A stretch of DNA of 64,000 bases from Thermoleophilia bacterium (lineage in GTDB: Bacteria; Actinomycetota; Thermoleophilia; Solirubrobacterales; 70-9): assembly GCA_016650125.1 (NCBI GenBank), contig JAENWT010000012.1, positions 1 through 64,000 on the forward strand, written 5' to 3'. The notes beneath the pieces were generated by a model. The model was not told the DNA's origin. It did no database searches and saw only the letters and a list, made by a program, of their open reading frames with translations. The translations under genes were made by a program, and so were the position numbers. Below, in pieces: positions 51,050 through 62,669 of the stretch (position 1 is the stretch's first letter; each line of letters opens with the position of its first letter).

Positions 51050-51285
51050 GTCGACGCGCTCGCCGGACCGCCGCCTGAGTACGGCGCTGATCCGCGCCAG
51101 GAGGGTGCGATTTCAGATCAGACGCCCTTATATAGAGGGAAATATTAGGGGGCGGTTTTCGTTATCCCCTCTTTTTCCGATTTTCGCGGATTCTTATCCC
51201 TAAATTCCCTGATCGTTCTCACCCGGGCGTGGACCTTGACAGCGGTCACAGCATTTCCTTTCAATGTCGGGTCTAGAATGAGGTC

Positions 51286-52158
51286 ATGAAAGTGGAAGAA
51301 GTGGCGGAGTCGTTGGCCGCCGCTCTGGGAGGCGTGGAAGGCCTTGAGCACCTGGACGATGGCGGTCAGGGGCTGGTCTGGCGTTTTCAGGAGGGCGGCG
51401 AGGATCTGGTCGTGAAGGTCATGAAGGCCGAGAACGATCCGCGGATTGAAAAGGAGATTGCCGCGCTCGGGTCGATTGACAGCCCGTTCGTGATGAAGTT
51501 CTCGGGATCGTTCGAGTTCGAGCACCGAGGGAAGGTGCTCCACGCGATCAAAGGCGAGTTCGTTCCGGGCGGCACAGTCCAAGACAAGCTCGTTGCAGAC
51601 GGACCTCCCTCGTCGACCGAGGCATTTCACTTCGTCCACGGTGCCCTTCTGGGCATCAAGGCAATTCATGATCACGGTCGCATCCACCGGGATTTGAAGC
51701 CTCAGAACATCGCGTTGCGCGACGGGGACTGGGCGACTCCCGTAGTCCTCGATCTGGGCCTCGTTCGGAACTTGGATGAGACCTCGATCACGATCTACCC
51801 ACAACTGCTCGGCACGCTCCCCTTCATGGCTCCGGAACAGCTGCGGCAAGAGCGCGCCGTGAAGAGGACCGATGTATTCGGCATCGGGGCGGTGCTCTTC
51901 TACGCGATGACGGGAACGCACCCTTTCTTCGATCCCGTGACTGACGCGGAGATGTCCACCGATGATTTGCGGCTCAAGATGATCGAACGCGGTGACGAAC
52001 TCGGCTGGCCTCGATGGTCCAACCTCCCGGTCGCCCTTGACGAAGATGTCGCGGCCTTCGTCGGGTCGCTGATAGCGGCGGATGCCTTTGAACGGCCGAG
52101 CGTCGAGGCGGCACTGGCTGAATGCGAATCGCTGTTGCGCGCTCGGGGCGAGGCATGA
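51286..52158 (+). CDS. Serine/threonine protein kinase
   Basis: 290 aa, kinase domain only, no membrane segment or PASTA repeats. A loose glycine loop DDGGQGLVWRF, the ATP-binding Lys 44 in DLVVKVMK, the catalytic loop IHRDLKPQN (Asp 136), DLG 156-158 in place of DFG, and MAPEQ (181-185) as the APE motif. All key catalytic residues are present. ATG 51286 has GAGG 3 nt before it, and TAGAAT (51274-51279) could be a near-leaderless -10. It overlaps the next gene by 4 nt (ATGA), so kinase and partner are coupled. Kinases of this small soluble type occur in defence and conflict loci; the target is unknown. Confidence 0.88.
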   Translation: MKVEEVAESLAAALGGVEGLEHLDDGGQGLVWRFQEGGEDLVVKVMKAENDPRIEKEIAALGSIDSPFVMKFSGSFEFEHRGKVLHAIKGEFVPGGTVQDKLVADGPPSSTEAFHFVHGALLGIKAIHDHGRIHRDLKPQNIALRDGDWATPVVLDLGLVRNLDETSITIYPQLLGTLPFMAPEQLRQERAVKRTDVFGIGAVLFYAMTGTHPFFDPVTDAEMSTDDLRLKMIERGDELGWPRWSNLPVALDEDVAAFVGSLIAADAFERPSVEAALAECESLLRARGEA

Positions 52159-53306
52159 GTCTCCCTATCTCACCGGTGCTCTTGCTCGCGCAGGGCGCGC
52201 ATCACGGCGGCGAGCTTGTCACGGTGGGCCAAGCTCGGAAAGATTCTGGCGCCCGGCCCCCGGGGCTGGCCCTGGACTGGGGACACAATCATGCCGAGGG
52301 CGTTGACGCTCTCGGCAAAGCTGCGGGACCCCTGATGAGTCCGATTTTGGCTCACCCGGGCGCTGACACGGACAGGTACGGCAAGGAAAAGTTCGGCCCG
52401 CACAAGGCCGCCGCCCCATGGACGCAACGGGCTGTTCCGAAGACAGTGGAAGAGTGGGACCTGACAATCCGGGAATCTGTCGAAGCCCAATCCCGACTCC
52501 CCCTCGACGCGGTCATGCTGCCCACAAGGCCGATCACGGGAACCGACTGGCCTGACGACTTCCAAGTGTTGGCTGACGTAGCCCGCCGAGCTTGGACTAC
52601 TCTCAATCTCGGCTCGGCCCCTTTTATTACCCTGAAGGTCAGCGAGCGGTGGGTCACCGAGAGGAAAATGCGCCGCACTCTCCTGAATCAGCTGACTGAC
52701 CTACCGCCTGACTTCAACGTGGCCATCGACGTTTCGTGGAACTCCATGGCCAGTTACACCGACGAATCAGCTCTTCACGACCTGGCCACAATCGTCAGCG
52801 CCCTGGCCAACGACAACCGGAAGGTCCTCCTCCTTGAATCAGGCCTGATCGGATGGCTCTCGATCGCTTGGGGTGGATGGGGATTCTCGGCGGGTCTCTC
52901 GAACGCAAGTTGGTTCCGGCAGAACGCGGTGATCCGTCGAGCGAAGGGTCAGCCGGGGCCGCCGCGGATCAAACGGTACTTTGAGAAGCAGCTCCTGAAC
53001 CGAGTCCGGCAACCACAGCATGTTCGGCTGAAAGCCCAGCCCGGATATCAGGCGTGCGGTTGTCCGTCCTGTGTTCAGCTTGGCCCGGATTCCCCGAACC
53101 CATGGGATTTTCTGGAGGCCGACAAGCATGCCCTGTTCAGCCTCGCCGCCCTCACCGACGAAATCTCCGCTCCCAGGCTGGCCGAACGCGCCAACCGCGT
53201 GCGGAAACGTCTCGACGACGCGATCGCTTACAACAAGTCATTGCCGTTCGAACTACCCGGCGACTCTAAGCCCGTCCATCTCGAAGCCTGGCGTTCGGTC
53301 GCCTGA
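52155..53306 (+). CDS. Unknown protein coupled to the kinase, with CxCxxC site (possibly TGT-like barrel)
   Basis: 383 aa from ATG 52155, overlapping the kinase stop. Alternating strands and helices suggest a TIM-barrel-like fold: LALDWGHNHAEG, LDAVMLPTRPITG, FITLKVSE, FNVAIDVSWNSM, KVLLLESGLIGWLSIAWGGWGFSAGLSNASWFRQ. Near the C-terminus Cys 301, Cys 303 and Cys 306 form CGCPSC with a His at 325. A late CxCxxC after a barrel is reminiscent of tRNA-guanine transglycosylase zinc sites, but spacing to the His is shorter and no catalytic motif was matched. Treated as unknown. The 3' end overlaps the convergent gene at 53253 by 54 nt. Confidence 0.7.
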   Translation: MSLPISPVLLLAQGAHHGGELVTVGQARKDSGARPPGLALDWGHNHAEGVDALGKAAGPLMSPILAHPGADTDRYGKEKFGPHKAAAPWTQRAVPKTVEEWDLTIRESVEAQSRLPLDAVMLPTRPITGTDWPDDFQVLADVARRAWTTLNLGSAPFITLKVSERWVTERKMRRTLLNQLTDLPPDFNVAIDVSWNSMASYTDESALHDLATIVSALANDNRKVLLLESGLIGWLSIAWGGWGFSAGLSNASWFRQNAVIRRAKGQPGPPRIKRYFEKQLLNRVRQPQHVRLKAQPGYQACGCPSCVQLGPDSPNPWDFLEADKHALFSLAALTDEISAPRLAERANRVRKRLDDAIAYNKSLPFELPGDSKPVHLEAWRSVA

Positions 53307-54032
53307 GCGAACCGGAGCGGACTCGAAAGAACCGGCCGAAAGAGCCCGACCGTAGATCTGCTCGGATGCCCATGCGGCAGCAAACTCGTCACCCGGCGAT
53401 CGAGTATTGACCGCCCGGACGATGCGATGGAGCGTCCCCTCGCTGGAAAGTAAAGCGAGGCCGATCCCCAGAGACCGAGCAGCTTCCACAGCCTGAACGT
53501 TCGGCTCTCGGCTCAAGATCACCCAAGAACTGTTTGCCCATCGCGAATATGCTGCCGCTTGTCGAATGGCTCCTTGCCAGTTCGAGAGTTTGAGCTCGAC
53601 GGCCACAACCCGAGCCGCCACCGACGACCACCCCGGATGGGTCAGATACCGGTGTTTGGGCTGCTTGCGGATCGCACCTACTTCCAACCCCAAGCTGAGC
53701 GCGTTTGATGCTGCGGACCGAGAGATACGAAACTGGTCGGCCACTTCTGCTGAAGTCACCGGATTGTCCCGAGCAAACATCAGGACCTGAAGTGCCAGAG
53801 CGTTCGTGACCGGACCGATTCCCTCTCGAAGGCGCGTTTCAACTGGCCCGCGAGCGAACCTGATCGCGGCTAAGTCGGCAACCGCATCCGGTCCCACTAT
53901 CTCCCCGGCGATGAAGTCAGGATCCTGCTTCGACCCCCACCAAGAGCCATTCGCAGCGATCGCGGGCGAGGTCATCTCGCTTTCCCAGCGAAAGTCTGTC
54001 ATCCGATGAAGGTAACGGATCGCTTGCATCAT
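53253..54032 (-). CDS. Winged-helix protein with PD-(D/E)xK nuclease-like domain
   Basis: 259 aa from ATG 54032 (AGGA 5 nt upstream). The middle has a winged helix: ALALQVLMFARDNPVTSAEVADQFRISRSAASNALSLGLEVGAI. The following part reads VAVELKLSNWQGAIRQAAAYSRWANSSWVILS, where E-x-K after a strand and the QAAAYSRWANSSWV helix/strand fit restriction-endonuclease-like folds found in actinobacterial wHTH proteins. The last 60 residues are variable. It could be a DNA-binding regulator with a dead nuclease fold or an active nuclease. Divergent from the HEPN-like gene; a perfect palindrome lies between them. Overlaps the 52155 gene tail to tail. Confidence 0.72.
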   Translation of the reverse strand: MMQAIRYLHRMTDFRWESEMTSPAIAANGSWWGSKQDPDFIAGEIVGPDAVADLAAIRFARGPVETRLREGIGPVTNALALQVLMFARDNPVTSAEVADQFRISRSAASNALSLGLEVGAIRKQPKHRYLTHPGWSSVAARVVAVELKLSNWQGAIRQAAAYSRWANSSWVILSREPNVQAVEAARSLGIGLALLSSEGTLHRIVRAVNTRSPGDEFAAAWASEQIYGRALSAGSFESAPVRSGDRTPGFEMDGLRVAG

Positions 54033-54087
54033 GCTCGTCCTTTTCGCATATCTCGCAACTAAGTAGTCAGCCGCCACCGGGGAATCC

Positions 54088-54107
54088 CTCAGTTCGATAG
54101 AACTGAG
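54088..54107. promoter_or_regulatory. Perfect palindrome between divergent genes (operator candidate)
   Basis: CTCAGTTC (54088-54095), GATA, GAACTGAG (54100-54107): 8-nt arms with no mismatch. It ends 2 nt before the ATG at 54110 and lies 55 nt upstream of the gene starting at 54032. A dimeric winged-helix protein, such as the divergent gene product, could bind here. Confidence 0.55.
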
Positions 54108-54109
54108 CC

Positions 54110-54820
54110 ATGAGCCCAGAAGTGCGCGACTTTGCTGATCCCCTCGAAGGACTCGAAGCTCAACTCACCAGGTTACGAGGACTTATCGGCATAGTCCCGC
54201 CGCTCATCGAGGCAGATCGCGATCGAAGATGGAACGAGATCAACTCCCGACCCAGCGACGGAGAAGACGGAGACACCATCGACATCTTCGGAGAGGAAGC
54301 TGGATTCGGAGAAGAAGGTGGTTTCGCAGAGTTCAATCGAACCATCTACGAATCAGCGATCGTTTTCGGTTGGGCCATCTTCCATGACTTTCTTGTACAG
54401 GAGCTCAAACACAACTTCCTGAACTTCGACCTCTCAGAACACCCTTCCCTCCAGATCCTCGTTGAGGAGGACGTTCGTAACTGGGATCGGCGCTTCGATC
54501 GAGTCAGGGACCGCTTCCGAGATTTTGCCGATATCAGGTTGGCTGAGTTAGAAAGCTGGCAAATGGTGCTTCATGCCCAGGCGTTACGCAACGCCCTGGT
54601 TCACAATCAAGGCCTCTACACCCGGAGCTACCTGAACGCTCCCCTCGCTTACAGGCCGACTAAAGAGGATCTTCAAGGCTTTGAGCCACCCACGGATGAA
54701 GCACGGTTGATCGATCATGAGCCAATCCCGCTCTCGCTCGACTTCACCGAGAAAGTGATCACCGGATTGAGCGCCGCCGCCGTGGAGATCCGCGACGCGG
54801 TCGAGAACCCAGTCCGATAG
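54110..54820 (+). CDS. HEPN-like protein
   Basis: 236 aa, mostly helical. An acidic low-complexity insert lies at about residues 50-75 (SDGEDGDTIDIFGEEAGFGEEGGF). Helices follow: RTIYESAIVFGWAIFHDFLVQELKHNF, then SWQMVLHAQALRNALVHNQGLYTRSYL with Arg 160 and His 165, the R-x4-H motif of HEPN ribonucleases. HEPN proteins act as RNases in abortive infection and toxin-antitoxin modules. The assignment rests on this motif plus helix pattern, so other helical families remain possible. Next to a nuclease-like regulator gene and followed by a decayed gene tail. Confidence 0.62.
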   Translation: MSPEVRDFADPLEGLEAQLTRLRGLIGIVPPLIEADRDRRWNEINSRPSDGEDGDTIDIFGEEAGFGEEGGFAEFNRTIYESAIVFGWAIFHDFLVQELKHNFLNFDLSEHPSLQILVEEDVRNWDRRFDRVRDRFRDFADIRLAELESWQMVLHAQALRNALVHNQGLYTRSYLNAPLAYRPTKEDLQGFEPPTDEARLIDHEPIPLSLDFTEKVITGLSAAAVEIRDAVENPVR

Positions 54821-54822
54821 GC

Positions 54823-55020
54823 CGTGAATATTTCGTGGGACCCGGCGACGACGAGTATCGGCATGTCATGCCGGAGGATGTTCCAATCTCGACCCGGAGT
54901 TCACGGTTAACGTTGCGCTCCCTGCGAGCCGGGGCGTTCGACTATTTTCGTCCGTCAGCGAACTCGCAGGTAAATGACGGTCATACTATTTTCGGCGAGA
55001 TTCGAGTTAGGGCCCCGATT
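54823..55020 (+). pseudogene. Decayed duplicate of the 3' end of the gene at 55089
   Basis: Nucleotides 54823-54902 align with 55851-55926 of the intact gene, both encoding REYFVGPG(N/D)DEYRH(A/V)MPEDV(S/P)ISTR. A second match, ATTTTCGG(C/T)GA plus TTCGAG-TAGG-GCCC, lies at about 54975-55015 and corresponds to the last 80 nt of the intact gene with an internal deletion. There is no start codon or continuous frame for a protein. It directly follows the HEPN-like gene. Confidence 0.7.
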
Positions 55021-55088
55021 GGGACCCGGCCTCAGGCCCAGTCGCAAAACGAGAAATCGAGCTGCCGATTCAGCGATAAGATAAGCGC

Positions 55089-56078
55089 GTGATCGTCCCT
55101 GCGTTTACGCCCGGTTTCGGAGAGTTCTGGCAAGGAGCTGCAACCGTGGTGGCCGCAGCGTTGATTGTTCTGGGAATAGCCGCAATCGTGGTGATCGTCA
55201 TGGTCCTGCTGGACAGCGACTCTGACGGCGAGTCCTTCGGGTTCAGAAGCTCCGAATGGGACGACGATCCCAAGGTCGGCATCTTTTTGTTTATCGCAGA
55301 AGATCCGATCATGGGGATGATCGAACAGGTGAATAGATCCGAGCCGGTGGAACGAGAGGTAACTCGTCGGAAGAAGGGAACTCTCTCAGCTGGCACCCAA
55401 GGAATCGGAGCCGGTGTTGAAGCGGGGGCCGAGACTCGCGAGCTGTTCAATGATGCGAACCAGCGGATCGAGGCGAAATGCCTCCCCCTCGTCCAGCATC
55501 TGGAGGGAGCAGGGAAGGTTTGTTCTCGTCCCGATTCGTTTCTCTTGGACAGCAGCTTGGTCCCCACTTTGCAAAACCGTCCGGCTCAATTCATTAAGGA
55601 ATTTCTTGACGAGCGCTATCCGGATGGCTTGGAGGGTGTCGGGTCGTCAGAGATCGCCGAATCCCTCGCATCTCATACTGAGAACCGGGATTTTCACCTC
55701 TCCGACTCTGAGGCGCGTAAGCGCCTGCTCGAACATCTGGCCTGGGTCGATGAGAGCGAGGAGGGAAATTTTGTGCTGGTGAGTGATGCCTGGGTTGTCG
55801 CTGAAGATGGAGACCACATCGAGTTGAGCCGACCCGATTTTCACATTCGACGTGAATATTTTGTGGGTCCCGGCAATGATGAGTATCGGCATGCCATGCC
55901 AGAGGACGTTTCAATATCGACTCGAATTCGAATCGAGGACCTTCTTGACCATGGTCGGGATCGGCTCATCGGTCTGGATCGAAATACCCGCCTCACCATT
56001 TTCGGTGAAATCTTGGGTTTCGACCCTGATCACAATAGGTTCGAGATAGGGGCCCTGCTCGTTTATACGGAGAGTTAG
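55089..56078 (+). CDS. Membrane-anchored protein of unknown function
   Basis: 329 aa from GTG 55089. One strong N-terminal membrane helix (GAATVVAAALIVLGIAAIVVIVMVLL, residues 16-41), then an acidic cytosolic or external region. Residues 195-250 look like a winged-helix-type fold (GVGSSEIAESLASHTENRDFHLSDSEARKRLLEHLAWVDESEEGNFVLVSDAWVV). The C-terminal 75 residues (REYFVGPGNDEYRHAMPEDVSISTR...TIFGEILGFDPDHNRFEIGALLV) exist a second time as a decayed copy 1 kb upstream. No family recognised. Its stop overlaps the stop of the minus-strand gene at 56075. Confidence 0.68.
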   Translation: MIVPAFTPGFGEFWQGAATVVAAALIVLGIAAIVVIVMVLLDSDSDGESFGFRSSEWDDDPKVGIFLFIAEDPIMGMIEQVNRSEPVEREVTRRKKGTLSAGTQGIGAGVEAGAETRELFNDANQRIEAKCLPLVQHLEGAGKVCSRPDSFLLDSSLVPTLQNRPAQFIKEFLDERYPDGLEGVGSSEIAESLASHTENRDFHLSDSEARKRLLEHLAWVDESEEGNFVLVSDAWVVAEDGDHIELSRPDFHIRREYFVGPGNDEYRHAMPEDVSISTRIRIEDLLDHGRDRLIGLDRNTRLTIFGEILGFDPDHNRFEIGALLVYTES

Positions 56079-56491
56079 GCTCGCTGAAGACGCGAAAAAC
56101 GACTCTCGATTGGGTTTTTCTTTTTTCCGGCATTAGATCGCTGCGAATCCCGCCGCTGGGCTAGATGGATACGCAACACTCGTTCCTCCAACCGATCCAA
56201 CACGTCATGCTCCTCGGCCGTTGCGTTTCCTTGGTCGGCAAGAGCGAGCATCTCTTCCAATCTCTCGTAAACCTTGATGCCGCATTTTTGAACCGCATCC
56301 GAGAGATCGTCGCCTTCGACCAGCAGATCGAATTCTAGCCCTCGCAGAAACGTTGTCTCGTTTTCAGTCCAATACTCAACACGTGTCAGCGGAAGCGACT
56401 CTCCGTCTGCGGTGATCACGATGAGAATCTCTTCTCGACCGTCAATTCCAGTTGGCTGGGTTTGGGTGGCTTGAGCTTTCGTTGTATTCAT
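56075..56491 (-). CDS. Small HicB-like protein of unknown function
   Basis: 138 aa. The middle reads TTFLRGLEFDLLVEGDDLSDAVQKCGIKVYERLEEMLA, similar in pattern to the HicB-type fold (E-F/L-D, E-GDDLSDAV) but without a ribbon-helix-helix or HTH tail; the C-terminus is basic (QRRDSQRSNAGKKKNPIESRFSRLQRA). Starts at ATG 56491, with a 171-nt gap to the next upstream minus-strand gene. The HicB resemblance is weak, so unknown is the safe call. Confidence 0.5.
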   Translation of the reverse strand: MNTTKAQATQTQPTGIDGREEILIVITADGESLPLTRVEYWTENETTFLRGLEFDLLVEGDDLSDAVQKCGIKVYERLEEMLALADQGNATAEEHDVLDRLEERVLRIHLAQRRDSQRSNAGKKKNPIESRFSRLQRA

Positions 56492-56662
56492 CTGTGGAGG
56501 CTGAATTTCAGACTATTGGGATCTATCTCTGATCGCATCCTTCGAGAAACCATGGTACATGGGAGCCTACTCGGACTCCCGCTTTTCGCAAGGTTGGCGC
56601 CGATCCATCTTTGGGTGTCGTGGCGCGTGCATGCCATCAGGCCTGGGCAAGATTTGGCTTTT

Positions 56663-57082
56663 CTAAACCGAGGACGCATCCTGAGGAGGTTCGTCACGCA
56701 TCTGTCCCGCTGCCCGTCTCAGCTCGCGATCCAGAGAATCGACGATCGACTCATCAAAATTTCCGATATTGATGACTCTGGTCATCCTGGTCTCCTTTGG
56801 CAGTTTCGCGTAGAAGCTCACCGGCGGCGGTTCTCGACCTTCCATGACAATCTCAAGGCCTTTCGGCACTGAGTCAGGCCGTCTTGCGACATTGGTGATG
56901 ACGGTCAAGTCCGCGGGCCCATAGCCGCCCAAATGACCCACTAGCTTCTCGGCTCTCGCCCAAGCCATGTTGATCAGGTCCCGAGGCTCAGGAGAATCGA
57001 CCACCGTGCCATCGCTAAACCAGGCGCCTATCCCGACCGTTCCCTCCCAAGATGCTCGCACTATCCACGACTCTTGAATCAC
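56663..57082 (-). CDS. Hypothetical protein, coupled to the gene upstream
   Basis: 139 aa from GTG 57082, overlapping the stop of the 57079-57303 gene (GTGA). Contains ESWIVRASWEGTVGIGAWFSDGTVVDSPEPRDLINMAWARAEKLVGHLGGYGPADLTVITNVAR, an alpha/beta pattern that could be a small catalytic or binding domain, then a Pro-rich loop and a charged helix. No family recognised. The coupling suggests that the two proteins function together. Confidence 0.5.
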   Translation of the reverse strand: MIQESWIVRASWEGTVGIGAWFSDGTVVDSPEPRDLINMAWARAEKLVGHLGGYGPADLTVITNVARRPDSVPKGLEIVMEGREPPPVSFYAKLPKETRMTRVINIGNFDESIVDSLDRELRRAAGQMRDEPPQDASSV

Positions 57083-57303
57083 ATATCTAAGGCGGCTACG
57101 AATATCAAAATGATCGTGCGGACCCGAGTCGAAAGAAATGAAAATGAATCTTGTTGTTGGATGAGTCTTCGATCTTCCGGTTCTGTATCTGGAAGAGTCT
57201 CCGCGGCCTCGATGATGTGATTCCGCATTTTTTCACTGAACAAGACGGAAGAGATGTCGGGATTAGAGCGGTTTCGCGCCGCGATCCCAAGTCCAAATGC
57301 CAT
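57079..57303 (-). CDS. Short hypothetical protein with C-terminal hydrophobic segment
   Basis: 74 aa. No recognised domain; polar N-terminal two thirds and a hydrophobic end (RTIILIFVAALDM). It starts 9 nt after the stop of the short gene at 57313 and its stop overlaps the GTG of the gene at 57082. The tight spacing is the main support; it has no good ribosome binding site. Confidence 0.35.
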   Translation of the reverse strand: MAFGLGIAARNRSNPDISSVLFSEKMRNHIIEAAETLPDTEPEDRRLIQQQDSFSFLSTRVRTIILIFVAALDM

Positions 57304-57312
57304 AGATCGGTT

Positions 57313-57492
57313 CTATTTCCAATCAGGAACTTCGATTACGAAGCGGGCTGCGTCTCCGGAGGAGAGCAGCGATATTTGTCTGGCTTGCCTTCCGCGCTCC
57401 CTCGCTTTTCGAAGCAACCACCATTTAGCATGAAGCGAAACAGGTACGCGAGTCATGAACTTCCCTGAATGGTCCTTATTTTCGTCCGTCAT
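57313..57492 (-). pseudogene. Ribbon-helix-helix (HicB/CopG-like) gene, apparently frameshifted
   Basis: 59-aa frame from ATG 57492 with a strong AAAGGAGAG ribosome binding site. It begins MTDENKDHSGKFMTRVPVSLHAK, which fits the GKF-x-x-RVP-x-SLH start of a ribbon-helix-helix antitoxin domain. The expected continuation (helix with an EG turn and ALL end) is found in the +1 frame, MVVASKSEGARKAS...TNIAALL, so one base appears to be lost after the codon for Ala in SLHA (near 57425). The frame as read ends at TAG 57313. It heads the small minus-strand gene group 57492-56663. Confidence 0.45.
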
Positions 57493-57721
57493 GCCTCTCC
57501 TTTTGTGTTGTCCGGTGTGGGAATACTCTCGTGAGGCTGGCTATCAGCCTTCCAGCGTGGTCCGGTCACTCCTTTTGGGGTTGGAGCATTCGATGTCCTC
57601 TTGCGCTATCTGACGGTCGATCCTGGCCCGGAAAGCTGGGTCCTTTTCGTAGAGCTCAAGTTAGCTCAGATTGCGGACACCTTCACCGCGGAGCGATACT
57701 TTCAGGACACCGCGACTGGCG

Positions 57722-59116
57722 TCAGTCTCGCTCTGTTACGAAGAGGGTCCCGTTATGGCCCGCGGCGGGCGGCACCGACCAGATCAAGAGATAACGACCG
57801 TCAGGAGTCACTGCGCCTGAAGCTTCGGGCAAGGATGTTGAAGCGAGCTGGTTCGAGAACACGGACTCTGACTCAAACGGCCGCTGGGCTGATCGTTTCA
57901 AGTAAATATCGATACTGAACGCAACCAGATTCTCAGTTGCAAAGCCGACGGCCCCCGAAGAATTCCCAGCGAACGTCCGATCTAGGAAGATCACCCTTGT
58001 CGATTCTTTTCGCTCGCGAAGCATCACAGGCTTGGAGACCGGCGCCGAGGCGGAGGTCGCTCCAGCGGGCCTTCCTGATTGCACTTGCGATGCGACCGCG
58101 GTAACCATTCCCTTTCTACTGATGTTCGCCGACGCGAAACTCATCAAGGACCCAGGCGGAGAGACTCTGACTGCCTTTCCGAACGACCGGTGGGTCATAC
58201 GGGCTTGCCGAACGACATAATGCTGGAGATAACCGTTGATCATGAGGACTCCCTGTCCCCGATCGTTGAGATCAAGGTCAAGACCAGCGTGCGAGCATTT
58301 TGAGCTCCTAACAGATCTGGTTCTTCCATAGGTAATGCTGTTCTGGTGCTGCGATCGGATCCGAACGTGCTGGTATCGCGTCGGCTGAGAGCGCGCCACG
58401 GTAGTTTGTGATCGGCAAGATTGGGCCCAAGCTACTAGGCCTCGTCCGCGCGTCCGAGCTGCTACGGAAACGAAGAGACCTGATCTCTGAGAAACCGCCA
58501 CCGTCTTGGGCAGACGAAATCGGCTGCTGCGCGGTGGTTTCACAGCGACGTAAGTGGAACCCGTCGACAGTCCGTAGTTTTGACTCCAAGCTAAGATCGC
58601 TGTCCCGTCTCTGGCCACGTCGATGTCCAAGGCGCTGACCGTCAAGCTCCGACCTGGCGGCACCAGTTTTTGGACCTTGGACCAGGATCTAGAAATGCTC
58701 CGGGTCCTGACCGCAATCTTTCGGTCCGGCGTAACCCAGGCGAGCACGGTCTCACCTGCCTCGCCGACATCCAACGTGGGTAGTCCGGCCGCCGACGCTG
58801 TGACTTGATTCGGCGCCCCAAAAGCGTCGTCGTTCGCGGCACGCACACTTGTAAACACTTGCGTCGTGGACCCCGGAGCCTCGGGTCCGTAGATCGGTGC
58901 CGACCCCCATGCCGCCACGGCATAGTCATTTGGACCAGCCCCAATCATAGGACTGTCGATTCCGTTTTCGAGCGCCGCGATGCGGGACGTAGTGGGAGCA
59001 GCAAGCGAAGATGGTGCCCACGCTGCCCAACTACAGACGACTAAGCCGACCCCTAAGGTGAGCCGCATCAGCTTTGTCAAAATCCTAATTTCAGGCTTCA
59101 AGATCATGCTCAACAT
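57722..59116 (-). CDS. Predicted secreted propeller-like protein
   Basis: 464 aa. Signal peptide MRLTLGVGLVVCSWAAWAPSSLAAP after a short extension (start at ATG 59116, or the inner ATG just before MRLTL). Repeating units with AW/WSQ-type strands follow: GEAGETVLAWVTPDRKIAVRTRS, ARDGTAILAWSQNYG, TRGRGLVAWAQSC, NDRGQGVLMINGY, TPDGRYLLIWSVPP, about one per 55-60 residues, in keeping with a beta-propeller. Same repeat style as the N-terminal half of the 1189-aa protein at 7009. Divergent from the secreted protease gene. Function unknown. Confidence 0.7.
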   Translation of the reverse strand: MLSMILKPEIRILTKLMRLTLGVGLVVCSWAAWAPSSLAAPTTSRIAALENGIDSPMIGAGPNDYAVAAWGSAPIYGPEAPGSTTQVFTSVRAANDDAFGAPNQVTASAAGLPTLDVGEAGETVLAWVTPDRKIAVRTRSISRSWSKVQKLVPPGRSLTVSALDIDVARDGTAILAWSQNYGLSTGSTYVAVKPPRSSRFRLPKTVAVSQRSGLFVSVAARTRGRGLVAWAQSCRSQTTVARSQPTRYQHVRIRSQHQNSITYGRTRSVRSSKCSHAGLDLDLNDRGQGVLMINGYLQHYVVRQARMTHRSFGKAVRVSPPGSLMSFASANISRKGMVTAVASQVQSGRPAGATSASAPVSKPVMLRERKESTRVIFLDRTFAGNSSGAVGFATENLVAFSIDIYLKRSAQRPFESESVFSNQLASTSLPEASGAVTPDGRYLLIWSVPPAAGHNGTLFVTERD

Positions 59117-59194
59117 TCTTTGTGCTCGACGGTGCCTCGAAAGGAAATGCCTCGGTTCTTCACTGGACGCGAGAGCTCCCTCCTTTGGAATTGG

Positions 59195-59224
59195 TTGACA
59201 TAGCCTAGCCGAGCGGGGTAGGTT
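59195..59224 (+). promoter_or_regulatory. Predicted promoter of the secreted protease gene
   Basis: -35 TTGACA (59195-59200), an 18-nt spacer and -10 TAGGTT (59219-59224, TAnnnT). GGAGG follows before the ATG at 59258, so a leadered transcript of about 27 nt is expected. Confidence 0.6.
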
Positions 59225-59257
59225 TGAAGCAATTTCTCGTTCAACACGGAGGTCACA

Positions 59258-60520
59258 ATGGCGGTACGATTCGTAGGATTCGTCGCAACTCTCGCGCTGA
59301 TACTCGCATTCGGAACCCCTGTTGCTCAGTCTTCGATACCGAAGCTGGAGACTTCTTCAGGCGGCTGGGAGTATCAAGAGGAGGAGCACCTCCCTTACTA
59401 CTTTGGAGAGGCCCCCACGGACCTTGAGCGGGAAATCAGTCAGTTGAAGATCAAAGCTCTAGAGTTGTGGCCCAACACCTACGCTGGCTTCTGGAAAATC
59501 GACGGCGACCCTTCGCGCGGAATCTTCGCGGCGTTCACTGCGGACGCACAAGAAAAGGTGGATCGCCTCGCGGAGGGCTTCAGTAAACCCGAACTCCTCC
59601 GACCAGTCACGCATCGGTACTCGAACGTTGAACTTGGCTCCCTGCTGGATGAAGTGGTTGACAAGAGAGATCTCGCCAGAGACGGGAAGCTAGACCTTCC
59701 GGGCGTGGATCGAAATCGGATGGACGTGAGGGTCGACGAGGTCAACAACCGTGTGGACGTGATTGCACCCCATCCCACCGAAGGTACCGTGTCCTACTTT
59801 GCTGAAAGTTTCCCTCAGTATTCCCGCGATACTTTGCGTGTAGTGGAAGGACCGATCATGGAGCCCGAGGCCTGTATCAATCGCACGCAATGTGGTTATG
59901 TTCTTCGGTCTGGACTAGAAACCGTTAACAACTACAACGGGTGTAGCACAGCCTTCGCAGTTACAAAAACCGACGCCGACGTCCCGTCACAACTCCTCTC
60001 CGCAGCGCACTGCGGGAACCCCTCAGGCAGTAGTGTCGGTGACCCCGTATACCACGGTTCCAACCCGTATACGACAGGGGACCGCTACGGATGGGTTCGA
60101 GGCGAAACGCAACTCGGTGTTCTGGACGTGGAGCGGCACAGCGTCCAGAACGGCTTTTACACCATTCCCCGGATCTATGGAAACCTCACCAATCAGCAAA
60201 TGCCGGTCTACTACGTAGCCTCTTACGCCGGGACCATGCAAGGGGACCCTGACTGTAAAGCTGGCGTGACGACCGGTCTTACTTGCGGTACGGTCACCTC
60301 GGTGAATTTCGCACCAAGCTACGTAGCTAACTCGGCCAACTTTATCTCGACGAATACCTGTTCCGATCCTGGGGATAGCGGAGCCGGACACTTCTGGGGA
60401 ACTATGGCTCTCGGAGTTCATTCTGGAGGGGCAGGTACAGGTTGCGGCGCCTTTTTCAGCCACATTCAATACGCCGAAATCTTCATGGGGCTCACCGTCA
60501 ACAAGCTGCCAATCCCATGA
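59258..60520 (+). CDS. Secreted chymotrypsin-like serine protease (S1 family) with propeptide
   Basis: 420 aa. Signal peptide MAVRFVGFVATLALILAFGTPVAQS, a propeptide of about 190 residues that resembles S1E pro-regions (GIFAAFTADAQEKVDRLAEGF, LDEVVDKRDLARDGK), then the protease domain. Catalytic triad: His in LLSAAHCGN, Asp in LGVLDVERHS, Ser in CSDPGDSGAGHFWG; paired cysteines around His and Ser (SAAHC with NGCSTAF; DCKAG/LTCGT; TNTCSDPG/GCGAFF). The layout matches streptogrisin/alpha-lytic-type proteases exported by Actinobacteria. ATG 59258 has GGAGG at about 6 nt. Divergent from the propeller-like secreted protein, which may be a partner or substrate (inference). Confidence 0.88.
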   Translation: MAVRFVGFVATLALILAFGTPVAQSSIPKLETSSGGWEYQEEEHLPYYFGEAPTDLEREISQLKIKALELWPNTYAGFWKIDGDPSRGIFAAFTADAQEKVDRLAEGFSKPELLRPVTHRYSNVELGSLLDEVVDKRDLARDGKLDLPGVDRNRMDVRVDEVNNRVDVIAPHPTEGTVSYFAESFPQYSRDTLRVVEGPIMEPEACINRTQCGYVLRSGLETVNNYNGCSTAFAVTKTDADVPSQLLSAAHCGNPSGSSVGDPVYHGSNPYTTGDRYGWVRGETQLGVLDVERHSVQNGFYTIPRIYGNLTNQQMPVYYVASYAGTMQGDPDCKAGVTTGLTCGTVTSVNFAPSYVANSANFISTNTCSDPGDSGAGHFWGTMALGVHSGGAGTGCGAFFSHIQYAEIFMGLTVNKLPIP

Positions 60521-60706
60521 GCCCCCTTTCGAAACGCATTCCGATTACCGTCCGATAGCTCGAATGTGAAGGTCAGGGACCCGAAGAGTAGGCAGCGACA
60601 AGGGGTTATGTCTGAGAGGTCGGCACCAGGGATCCGATGATGAGGATGCGGATCCCGGCGAAATCGTCAACAGGAAGTTCTGGCTCTATCTGCCAGCAAG
60701 AAGAAT

Positions 60707-60934
60707 TCATGCCCGCGCCACGACTTCCTGAGACAAGCGCTGAATGAGACCTGCGGCAAGTAGAATGAAAATGGCGCAAGCGGCCATGGAGACGGGAGCG
60801 GATCTAGACGGTCCGGGACAGATGTAAGTTGGAGACCGAGATCGGTTCCGAGTAAGCACTCGCTTCCGAGGGAATTGGTTCCACCTGGCGAAGGTGATTA
60901 CCGCGCACAAAGCCAAGGTAACGACGGCACACAC
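60707..60934 (-). CDS. Small protein with two membrane helices
   Basis: 75 aa from GTG 60934. Two hydrophobic helices (VCAVVTLALCAVITFARW and MAACAIFILLAAGLIQRL) joined by a basic linker. It starts 8 nt after the stop of the gene at 60943, so the two may form a unit. A longer frame upstream lies inside that gene. No family recognised. The gap 60521-60706 holds nothing I could identify. Confidence 0.4.
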   Translation of the reverse strand: MCAVVTLALCAVITFARWNQFPRKRVLTRNRSRSPTYICPGPSRSAPVSMAACAIFILLAAGLIQRLSQEVVARA

Positions 60935-61488: not shown

Positions 61489-61776
61489 ATGCCAAGAACA
61501 CGAAACGCATACCCGGAGGAGTTCAAAGATGAGGCCGTCCAGATGGTGCGTGCCGGCCGATCGGCCGGCGACGTCGCAAGATCGCTCGGCTGCTCACCGC
61601 AGTCGGTCGCAAACTGGACCCGCACCTACGAGCGCGACCAGGGGATCCGCGCCGACGGTCTGAAGACCGAGGAGCGTGAGGAGCTAAAAAGGCTCCGAAG
61701 AGAGGTCGTCAGGCTAAAGCAGGAGAGAGACCTGCTCAAACGAGCCGCGGCCTTCTTCGCAGCCGACCAGTCGTGA
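61489..61776 (+). CDS. IS3-family transposase OrfA
   Basis: 95 aa. Helix-turn-helix typical of IS3 OrfA (YPEEFKDEAVQMVRAGRSAGDVARSLGCSPQSVANWTRTYERD) and a C-terminal leucine-zipper-like helix (ELKRLRREVVRLKQERDLLKRAAAFFA) for multimerisation. Binds the element ends. OrfB lies in the -1 frame and overlaps its stop (GTGA); fused OrfAB may also be made by frameshifting, with an A5 run at about 61686-61690 as one possible slip site. Confidence 0.93.
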   Translation: MPRTRNAYPEEFKDEAVQMVRAGRSAGDVARSLGCSPQSVANWTRTYERDQGIRADGLKTEEREELKRLRREVVRLKQERDLLKRAAAFFAADQS

Positions 61777-62669
61777 CCAGATTCCGGCTTGTTGAAGCGG
61801 AGAAGGCCCTGACCCCGGTGAAGGTGAGCTGCGAGCTGCTCGGGGTTTCCCGCTCCGGCTACTACGCCTGGGAGGGGCGCTCTCCCTGCCAGCGTGAGCT
61901 GACCGACGCCTGGATCTTGGAAAAGATCAAGGAGATCCACCAGGAGAACCGGGGCGTCTACGGCGCCCCGAGGATCCACGCCGAACTCCGGATGGCCCAC
62001 GGGGTTCGGGTCGGCCGAAAGCGGGTCGAGCGGCTGATGAAAGCCGCCGGCATCTCAGGACTGGTGAAGAAGAAGCGTGGCAAGACGACGATCCGGGTTC
62101 CCGGGGTTCGGGTCGCCGACGACCTCCTGCTCCGCGACTTCACAGCAACGGAGCCGAACACCAAATGGGTTGCCGACATCACCTACCTGAGGACCTGGCA
62201 GGGCTGGGTCTACCTCGCCGCGGTTCAGGATCTCTACTCGCGACGGATCGTCGGCTGGTCGATGGCCGACCACATGCGTTCAGAGCTCGTGACCGACGCG
62301 CTCGAGATGGCGATTAGGAGACGAAGACCTGACCCCGGCCTGATTCACCACTCCGACCAGGGCAGCCAATACGTCTCGCTCGCCTTCGGCCAGACCGCCC
62401 GGATCAACGGCATCGCGAGATCGATGGGGAAGGTCGGAACCGCCTACGACAACTCGGTCGCCGAGACCTTCTTCGCGACGCTCAAGAAGGAGCTGATCTA
62501 CCGGCGAAAGTGGCCCGAAAGGCAGGAGCTCCGGACCGAGGTCTTCGAATACATCGAGTCCTTCTACAACCGCAAGAGACGCCACTCACGGCTCGGCTGG
62601 GTTTCACCCGTTGAGTTCGAGGAGACCCGCCAACCTACATCGAGAGTTCAGGCGCTAAGTTCTGCCTGA
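61773..62669 (+). CDS. IS3-family transposase OrfB (DDE integrase)
   Basis: 298 aa. Integrase-core transposase. HTH-like start (LLGVSRSGYYAWEGR), the IS3 block YGAPRIHAELRMAHGVRVGRKRVERLMKAAGI, and the DDE triad: D in TKWVADITYL, D in LIHHSDQGSQYVS, E in DNSVAETFFATLKKELI, then ESFYNRKRRHSRLGWVSPVEFE. All catalytic residues are present, so the element may be active. GTG 61773. Confidence 0.95.
   Translation: MTRFRLVEAEKALTPVKVSCELLGVSRSGYYAWEGRSPCQRELTDAWILEKIKEIHQENRGVYGAPRIHAELRMAHGVRVGRKRVERLMKAAGISGLVKKKRGKTTIRVPGVRVADDLLLRDFTATEPNTKWVADITYLRTWQGWVYLAAVQDLYSRRIVGWSMADHMRSELVTDALEMAIRRRRPDPGLIHHSDQGSQYVSLAFGQTARINGIARSMGKVGTAYDNSVAETFFATLKKELIYRRKWPERQELRTEVFEYIESFYNRKRRHSRLGWVSPVEFEETRQPTSRVQALSSA

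Follow-up and report, generated by a model that had tools for sequence, protein, structure and literature searches.

In this study, we found that the winged-helix nuclease gene next to the HEPN gene in the window (the whole stretch of 64,000 nt of DNA that was analysed) is almost certainly one part of a three-gene set, which also encodes a kinase and a protein with the predicted fold of tRNA-guanine transglycosylase (TGT). The best reading of this trio is an undescribed candidate anti-invader module, the mechanism of which we infer. The original prediction had covered positions 53253 to 54820 and had joined the winged-helix protein and the HEPN protein in a self-regulated toxin or abortive-infection module. 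Both genes, their motifs and the palindrome between them are present, but the HEPN/repressor module is not supported, as the conserved partners of the nuclease are the kinase and TGT-fold genes. These lie on the other side of the nuclease gene from the HEPN gene, outside that interval. The features of the locus are given in Table 1.

Table 1. Genes and inverted repeat at the nuclease locus (positions in the window).
Feature	Position	Strand	Remarks
Hanks-type Ser/Thr kinase gene	51286..52158	+	290 aa; catalytic motifs intact
TGT-fold protein gene	52155..53306	+	about 383 aa; ORF open from 52122 gives 394 aa
PD-(D/E)XK nuclease gene	53253..54032	-	259 aa; winged helix between D53 and E146-x-K148
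Perfect inverted repeat (8+4+8)	54088..54107		CTCAGTTC-GATA-GAACTGAG; exact, 2 nt before the HEPN ATG
HEPN protein gene	54110..54820	+	236 aa; ATG at 54110; R160-x4-H165; not a conserved member of the module

The kinase, TGT-fold and nuclease genes were found together in 21 loci, a number reached when genomes and viral contigs had been scanned with patterns and profiles and the neighbourhoods of the hits analysed. Besides the window, these loci are L004, L006, L008, L009, L010, L021, L022, L024, L028, L029, L031, L032, L033, L034, L035, L037, L043, L044, L045 and L047; L024, in which the nuclease gene is cut by the contig end, is counted among them. The trio is found on plasmids and prophages and in several bacterial phyla, its hosts and carriers being actinobacterial plasmids, a Polaromonas plasmid, Proteobacteria, a myxococcal MAG and phage contigs. 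In the window, the stop of the kinase gene and the start of the TGT-fold gene can be read as an ATGA overlap at 52155–52158, and the nuclease gene is convergent with the TGT-fold gene, with overlapping 3' ends. The gene order varies, with two arrangements among the 21 loci. On plasmids of Kineococcus, Dietzia, Arthrobacter and Kocuria, the nuclease gene is convergent to two others, one for a Ser/Thr kinase and one for a protein of about 390–465 aa, as in the window, while the three genes of the Polaromonas plasmid are co-directional in one operon. On the Kocuria plasmid (L009:5430-7454), the kinase and the TGT-like protein are fused into a single chain of 675 aa. The third proteins form one family, with leave-one-out profile E values of 3e-27 or lower in all 21 loci (4e-50 for the window protein).

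Two-gene variants, in which a VExK nuclease is followed by a TGT-like protein, were also observed (L030:5830-7648, L038:7757-9599 and L049:4863-6525). No kinase was detected beside the pair in these three loci, and the third protein of L049 matched the leave-one-out profile with E=2.7e-12. A Rhodococcus locus (L005) was rejected as a module locus, as it had been picked up by a chance HTH match and its protein looks like a regulator of the IclR type.

The kinase of the window matched Pkinase with E=3.5e-32, and the motifs VVKV, HRDLK, DLG and APEQ are all present. A Pkinase domain with the Lys, HRD and DFG/DLG motifs identifies it as a Hanks-type kinase. It shows 36% identity to its counterpart in the module of Kineococcus.

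The nuclease gene starts with the ATG at 54032 on the minus strand, and a GTG at 54077 is also possible. Its product had been described as a winged helix plus a VELKL endonuclease-like core, and this agreed with our AF2 model (pLDDT 85), in which a NucS/EndoMS fold flanks an inserted wHTH. The model has strands at residues 40–46 and 51–59, the wHTH at about 61–131, a further strand at 139–148 and a helix at 152–164. In the VIA comparison it matched NucS (2vld) with a Z of 11.2 over 100 residues at 2.6 A, and EndoMS and PaqCI were matched too; the NucS/EndoMS alignment covers both flanks of the inserted MarR/ArsR-like winged helix. Foldseek placed winged-helix proteins and AF2093 on top, none at E <= 0.001, and the nuclease fold was recovered by VIA. 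A MarR_2 match (E=1e-4) is below the cut-off of Pfam. An alignment of 19 members of the nuclease family showed no variation at E146, K148, W152, A155 and Q158, while E44 and D53 are kept in at least 90%. The pattern E..D..ExK..Q on an alpha-beta core was thus found in the alignment, in the AF2 secondary structure and in the matches to NucS, EndoMS and PaqCI, which places the protein among the PD-(D/E)XK nucleases.

The C-terminal domain of NucS/EndoMS and other PD-(D/E)XK enzymes (PaqCI, MmcB-like) have the catalytic fold and the E..D..ExK..Q residues in common with the window nuclease. Unlike NucS/EndoMS, however, the window nuclease carries a winged helix that separates its D strand from its ExK strand, and it is without the NucS N-terminal domain; no NucS match was obtained in Pfam, and the part of NucS that aligns is limited to the C-terminal nuclease region. 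In the long members of the family, the winged helix sits between the catalytic D and ExK strands. In the short members (about 140–170 aa), the spacing is the canonical D-(about 12)-ExK and the winged helix is missing, and members without it were found at L010, L022, L028, L034 and L047.

The third protein showed no convincing family in Pfam, NCBIfam, PADLOC or PHROGs and no sequence relative in the PDB, and a viral structure library gave only weak matches, partly named as TGT. Its AF2 model is of moderate confidence (pLDDT 67, pTM 0.73), with residues 24–67 mostly below 50. Foldseek nevertheless returned TGTs at all of ranks 1 to 12 (best E=2.2e-4), and the best 50 matches of a PDB search with VIA were all TGT, with Z of 14.6–16.3, 256–296 aligned residues and rmsd of 3.6–4.5 A; the best Z, 16.3, was obtained with the TGT structure 6h62. 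This moderate-confidence model therefore has the (beta/alpha)8-barrel fold of TGT. The hhalign comparison with TGT was weak (global E=8e-4, probability 10%; local alignment of low probability). Since the sequence profiles alone are weak, the TGT assignment rests mainly on the fold and on a motif. Before structure prediction, a CxCxxC...H pattern had suggested the TGT zinc site, and it lies opposite the TGT motif in the weak global profile alignment. CxCxxC is found in 6 of 22 members, including the window protein (residues 312–317), and the His column holds H in 14 of the 22.

The TGT nucleophile is D280 in the Z. mobilis enzyme, and the general base of TGT is D102 in the motif D-S-G-G-Y/F, which runs through position 106. 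The column that aligns with the nucleophile, by an equivalence taken from the weak global profile alignment, is S/G/A/T or similar and never D in all 22 members. D62 is D in 21 of the 22 and E in the other, and most members have D-P-x-x-Y there, with the spacing of the TGT motif; this stretch has low pLDDT and the equivalence of D62 to D102 is uncertain. The likeness to TGT/DpdA consists of the predicted fold, a putative zinc-site motif in a subset and a D-x3-Y/F reminiscent of D102-S-G-G-Y/F106, whereas the module protein differs in having no Pfam TGT match and no nucleophile Asp in any of the 22 members. As the nucleophile column is never D, the third protein has the predicted fold of TGT and yet is probably not an ordinary transglycosylase. 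The host genome carries a separate canonical TGT (G000:C22).

A nuclease fold like that of NucS/EndoMS next to a partner fold like that of TGT would fit a DNA repair or DNA modification pathway. Damaged or modified bases would then be dealt with by the TGT-fold protein, and the NucS-like nuclease would make an incision beside them. We regard such a pathway as improbable, given the patchy distribution of the trio (1 of 61 close genomes), its mobile and defence contexts and its kinase partner.

The divergent ORFs of the original prediction (259 aa on the minus strand and 236 aa on the plus strand) are present where it placed them, and the HEPN identity of the second was confirmed by profile and motif. 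It matched the PADLOC profile RTasHEPN with E=5.3e-7 over residues 96–172, and this profile match together with the R-x4-H motif marks it as a HEPN RNase. A six-frame genome scan with RTasHEPN gave E=2.1e-6 here, and 2 of 198 genomes of the phylum matched, namely this one and one other. No homologue was found in 60 relatives, in plasmids, in viral contigs or in the first genome-contig scan, and a sampled search of the phylum gave one distant match (genome G163), which has R160-x4-H165 in common with the window protein. This sole relative found (L041:7659-8375; L003:1312-2031) lies upstream of a NYN-domain-like ORF (L003:2181-2930). RTasHEPN belongs to DRT (reverse transcriptase) loci; unlike in those loci, no reverse transcriptase was recognised among the neighbouring window ORFs inspected.

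HEPN relatives are absent from all 20 other trio loci, so that the adjacency of nuclease and HEPN on which a toxin–antitoxin pairing would depend is not conserved, and HEPN was ruled out as a conserved partner of the nuclease. A scan of the module neighbours for the motif [RK]N-x3-H likewise gave no HEPN candidate. The palindrome was predicted correctly and is exact, and it is a single copy in the genome. Perfect inverted repeats with arms of 8 and loops of 0–10 number 40 (in 25 places) in the window, against 11–31 in six local shuffles, and the palindrome by itself is not beyond chance in the window. In the 15 relatives checked, the region upstream of the nuclease gene showed no counterpart. 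As it is not conserved in the nuclease relatives, the palindrome probably does not belong to the module; it might act locally in regulation in this single genome, but this is unsupported.

These findings bear on the proposed two-gene module for toxicity or abortive infection, whose wHTH protein would repress and/or neutralise the HEPN RNase through the palindrome. The divergent genes, the palindrome 2 nt before the HEPN start and the HEPN profile match fit such a module. We nevertheless judge it very unlikely, as neither the pair nor the palindrome is conserved, the nuclease has other conserved partners, and the wHTH, which relatives can dispense with, is inserted in a nuclease whose motifs are intact. 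Since the partners differ, the palindrome is not conserved and winged-helix-free members exist, the winged helix is more readily understood as an insert by which the nuclease recognises DNA than as a HEPN repressor.

Two copies of a direct repeat of 74 nt, with 85% identity, were observed at 54823-54896 and 55851-55924, the first of them beginning 3 nt downstream of the HEPN stop codon. A 329-aa ORF lies at 55089-56078, and the first copy resembles a leftover of its C-terminal part, such as would remain if the gene had once been duplicated and the second copy overwritten. Because the 3' end of the HEPN gene abuts this broken duplicate of an unrelated ORF, a separate insertion of HEPN is suggested. 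It has been documented that HEPN RNases often accompany defence loci (PMC12839542; PMC3710099), and the HEPN gene is immediately adjacent to the nuclease gene and divergent from it; HEPN could thus be a genome-specific back-up effector, joined to the trio in a four-gene defence unit in the window. With no second case among the 20 other trio loci and the signs of a separate insertion, we consider this unlikely. The HEPN gene is best read as a bystander, an independent neighbour in the accessory island and possibly a defence or toxin gene, or at most an optional back-up effector.

The module of the window lies in an accessory region (about 51150–60900) directly downstream of a Tad pilus operon. 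Synteny with 7 genus relatives extends through the Tad operon up to about 51.15 kb; the accessory region is absent at the site in these relatives, and its G+C drops from about 0.68 to 0.54–0.63. An ORF at 61773-62669 resembles an IS3-type transposase (OrfB) in its sequence. In L043, the module stands with a phage integrase, an ImmA/IrrE-like peptidase and a CI-like repressor, in the int-cI slot of a prophage, and integrase-like ORFs were read from the sequence near the modules of L034 and L035. Defence-gene neighbours were seen in a handful of loci: a Type ISP R-M enzyme in L022, an N6/N4 methylase and a SNF2 helicase, one on each side of the module, in L037, a NERD protein in L004 and an annotated N-6 DNA methylase in L006.

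The frequent occurrence of the trio on plasmids and in prophages raises the possibility of an addiction, stability or regulatory module of mobile elements, acting in plasmid maintenance or in prophage control through kinase signalling. This is conceivable but doubtful, because the trio is also chromosomal and found beside R-M genes, and a PD-(D/E)XK nuclease without an obvious antitoxin would be unusual for addiction. On balance, we favour, with some reserve, a defence module directed against phages or plasmids. In such a defence module, the TGT-fold protein may recognise (or remove) certain bases of DNA or tRNA. The kinase may sense infection, or phosphorylate a partner and so license the response, and the outcome would be cleavage of DNA by the nuclease. 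This chain of recognition, kinase trigger and DNA cleavage is put forward only tentatively. It would amount, equally speculatively, to a base-reading restriction from a tRNA-modification fold, built of a nucleophile-less TGT-fold protein, a Hanks kinase and a winged-helix PD-(D/E)XK nuclease. In this new class of anti-phage system, the TGT-fold protein would, under kinase control, find or excise a specific or modified base in tRNA or phage DNA, and the nucleic acid so marked would be destroyed by the nuclease.

The nuclease and the TGT-fold protein gave no convincing match to known defence models. TGT-family proteins are known from Dpd systems and from a capture system related to BREX (PMC12839542), and the trio resembles these in having such a protein at a locus of restriction-like or defensive character. 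Unlike them, it has no recognised DpdB/DpdC, PglZ or HerA and contains a Hanks kinase instead, and its TGT-fold protein is without the nucleophile. Kinases are reported as defence components in BREX (PglW; PMC12839542), in KKP (PMC11341870) and as CapK/CapS (PMC13373217), where CapK resembles anti-sigma-factor kinases and not Hanks kinases; those of MADS and PD-T4-6 are represented in the PADLOC models. A kinase is thus common to PglW of BREX, Mad6 of MADS, PD-T4-6, KKP, CapK/CapS and the trio, but the partners differ. The Mad1-Mad8 set of MADS was not found, with only a general kinase likeness to Mad6 and an HTH match of 0.038 to Mad1, and the TGT-fold proteins match no Mad model. No description of a trio of kinase, TGT-fold protein and PD-(D/E)XK nuclease was found in the open-access literature or in the profile libraries, although absence there is not proof.

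Taken together, the data correct the reading of this locus, in that the nuclease belongs with the kinase and TGT-fold trio and not with a HEPN toxin module. The trio is a compact three-gene unit and directly testable. If it is defensive, the immune repertoire would gain a TGT-fold component linked to phosphorylation, which is found across phyla and carried by prophages and plasmids, and it would form a new tie between a base-exchange enzyme family of tRNA modification and restriction.
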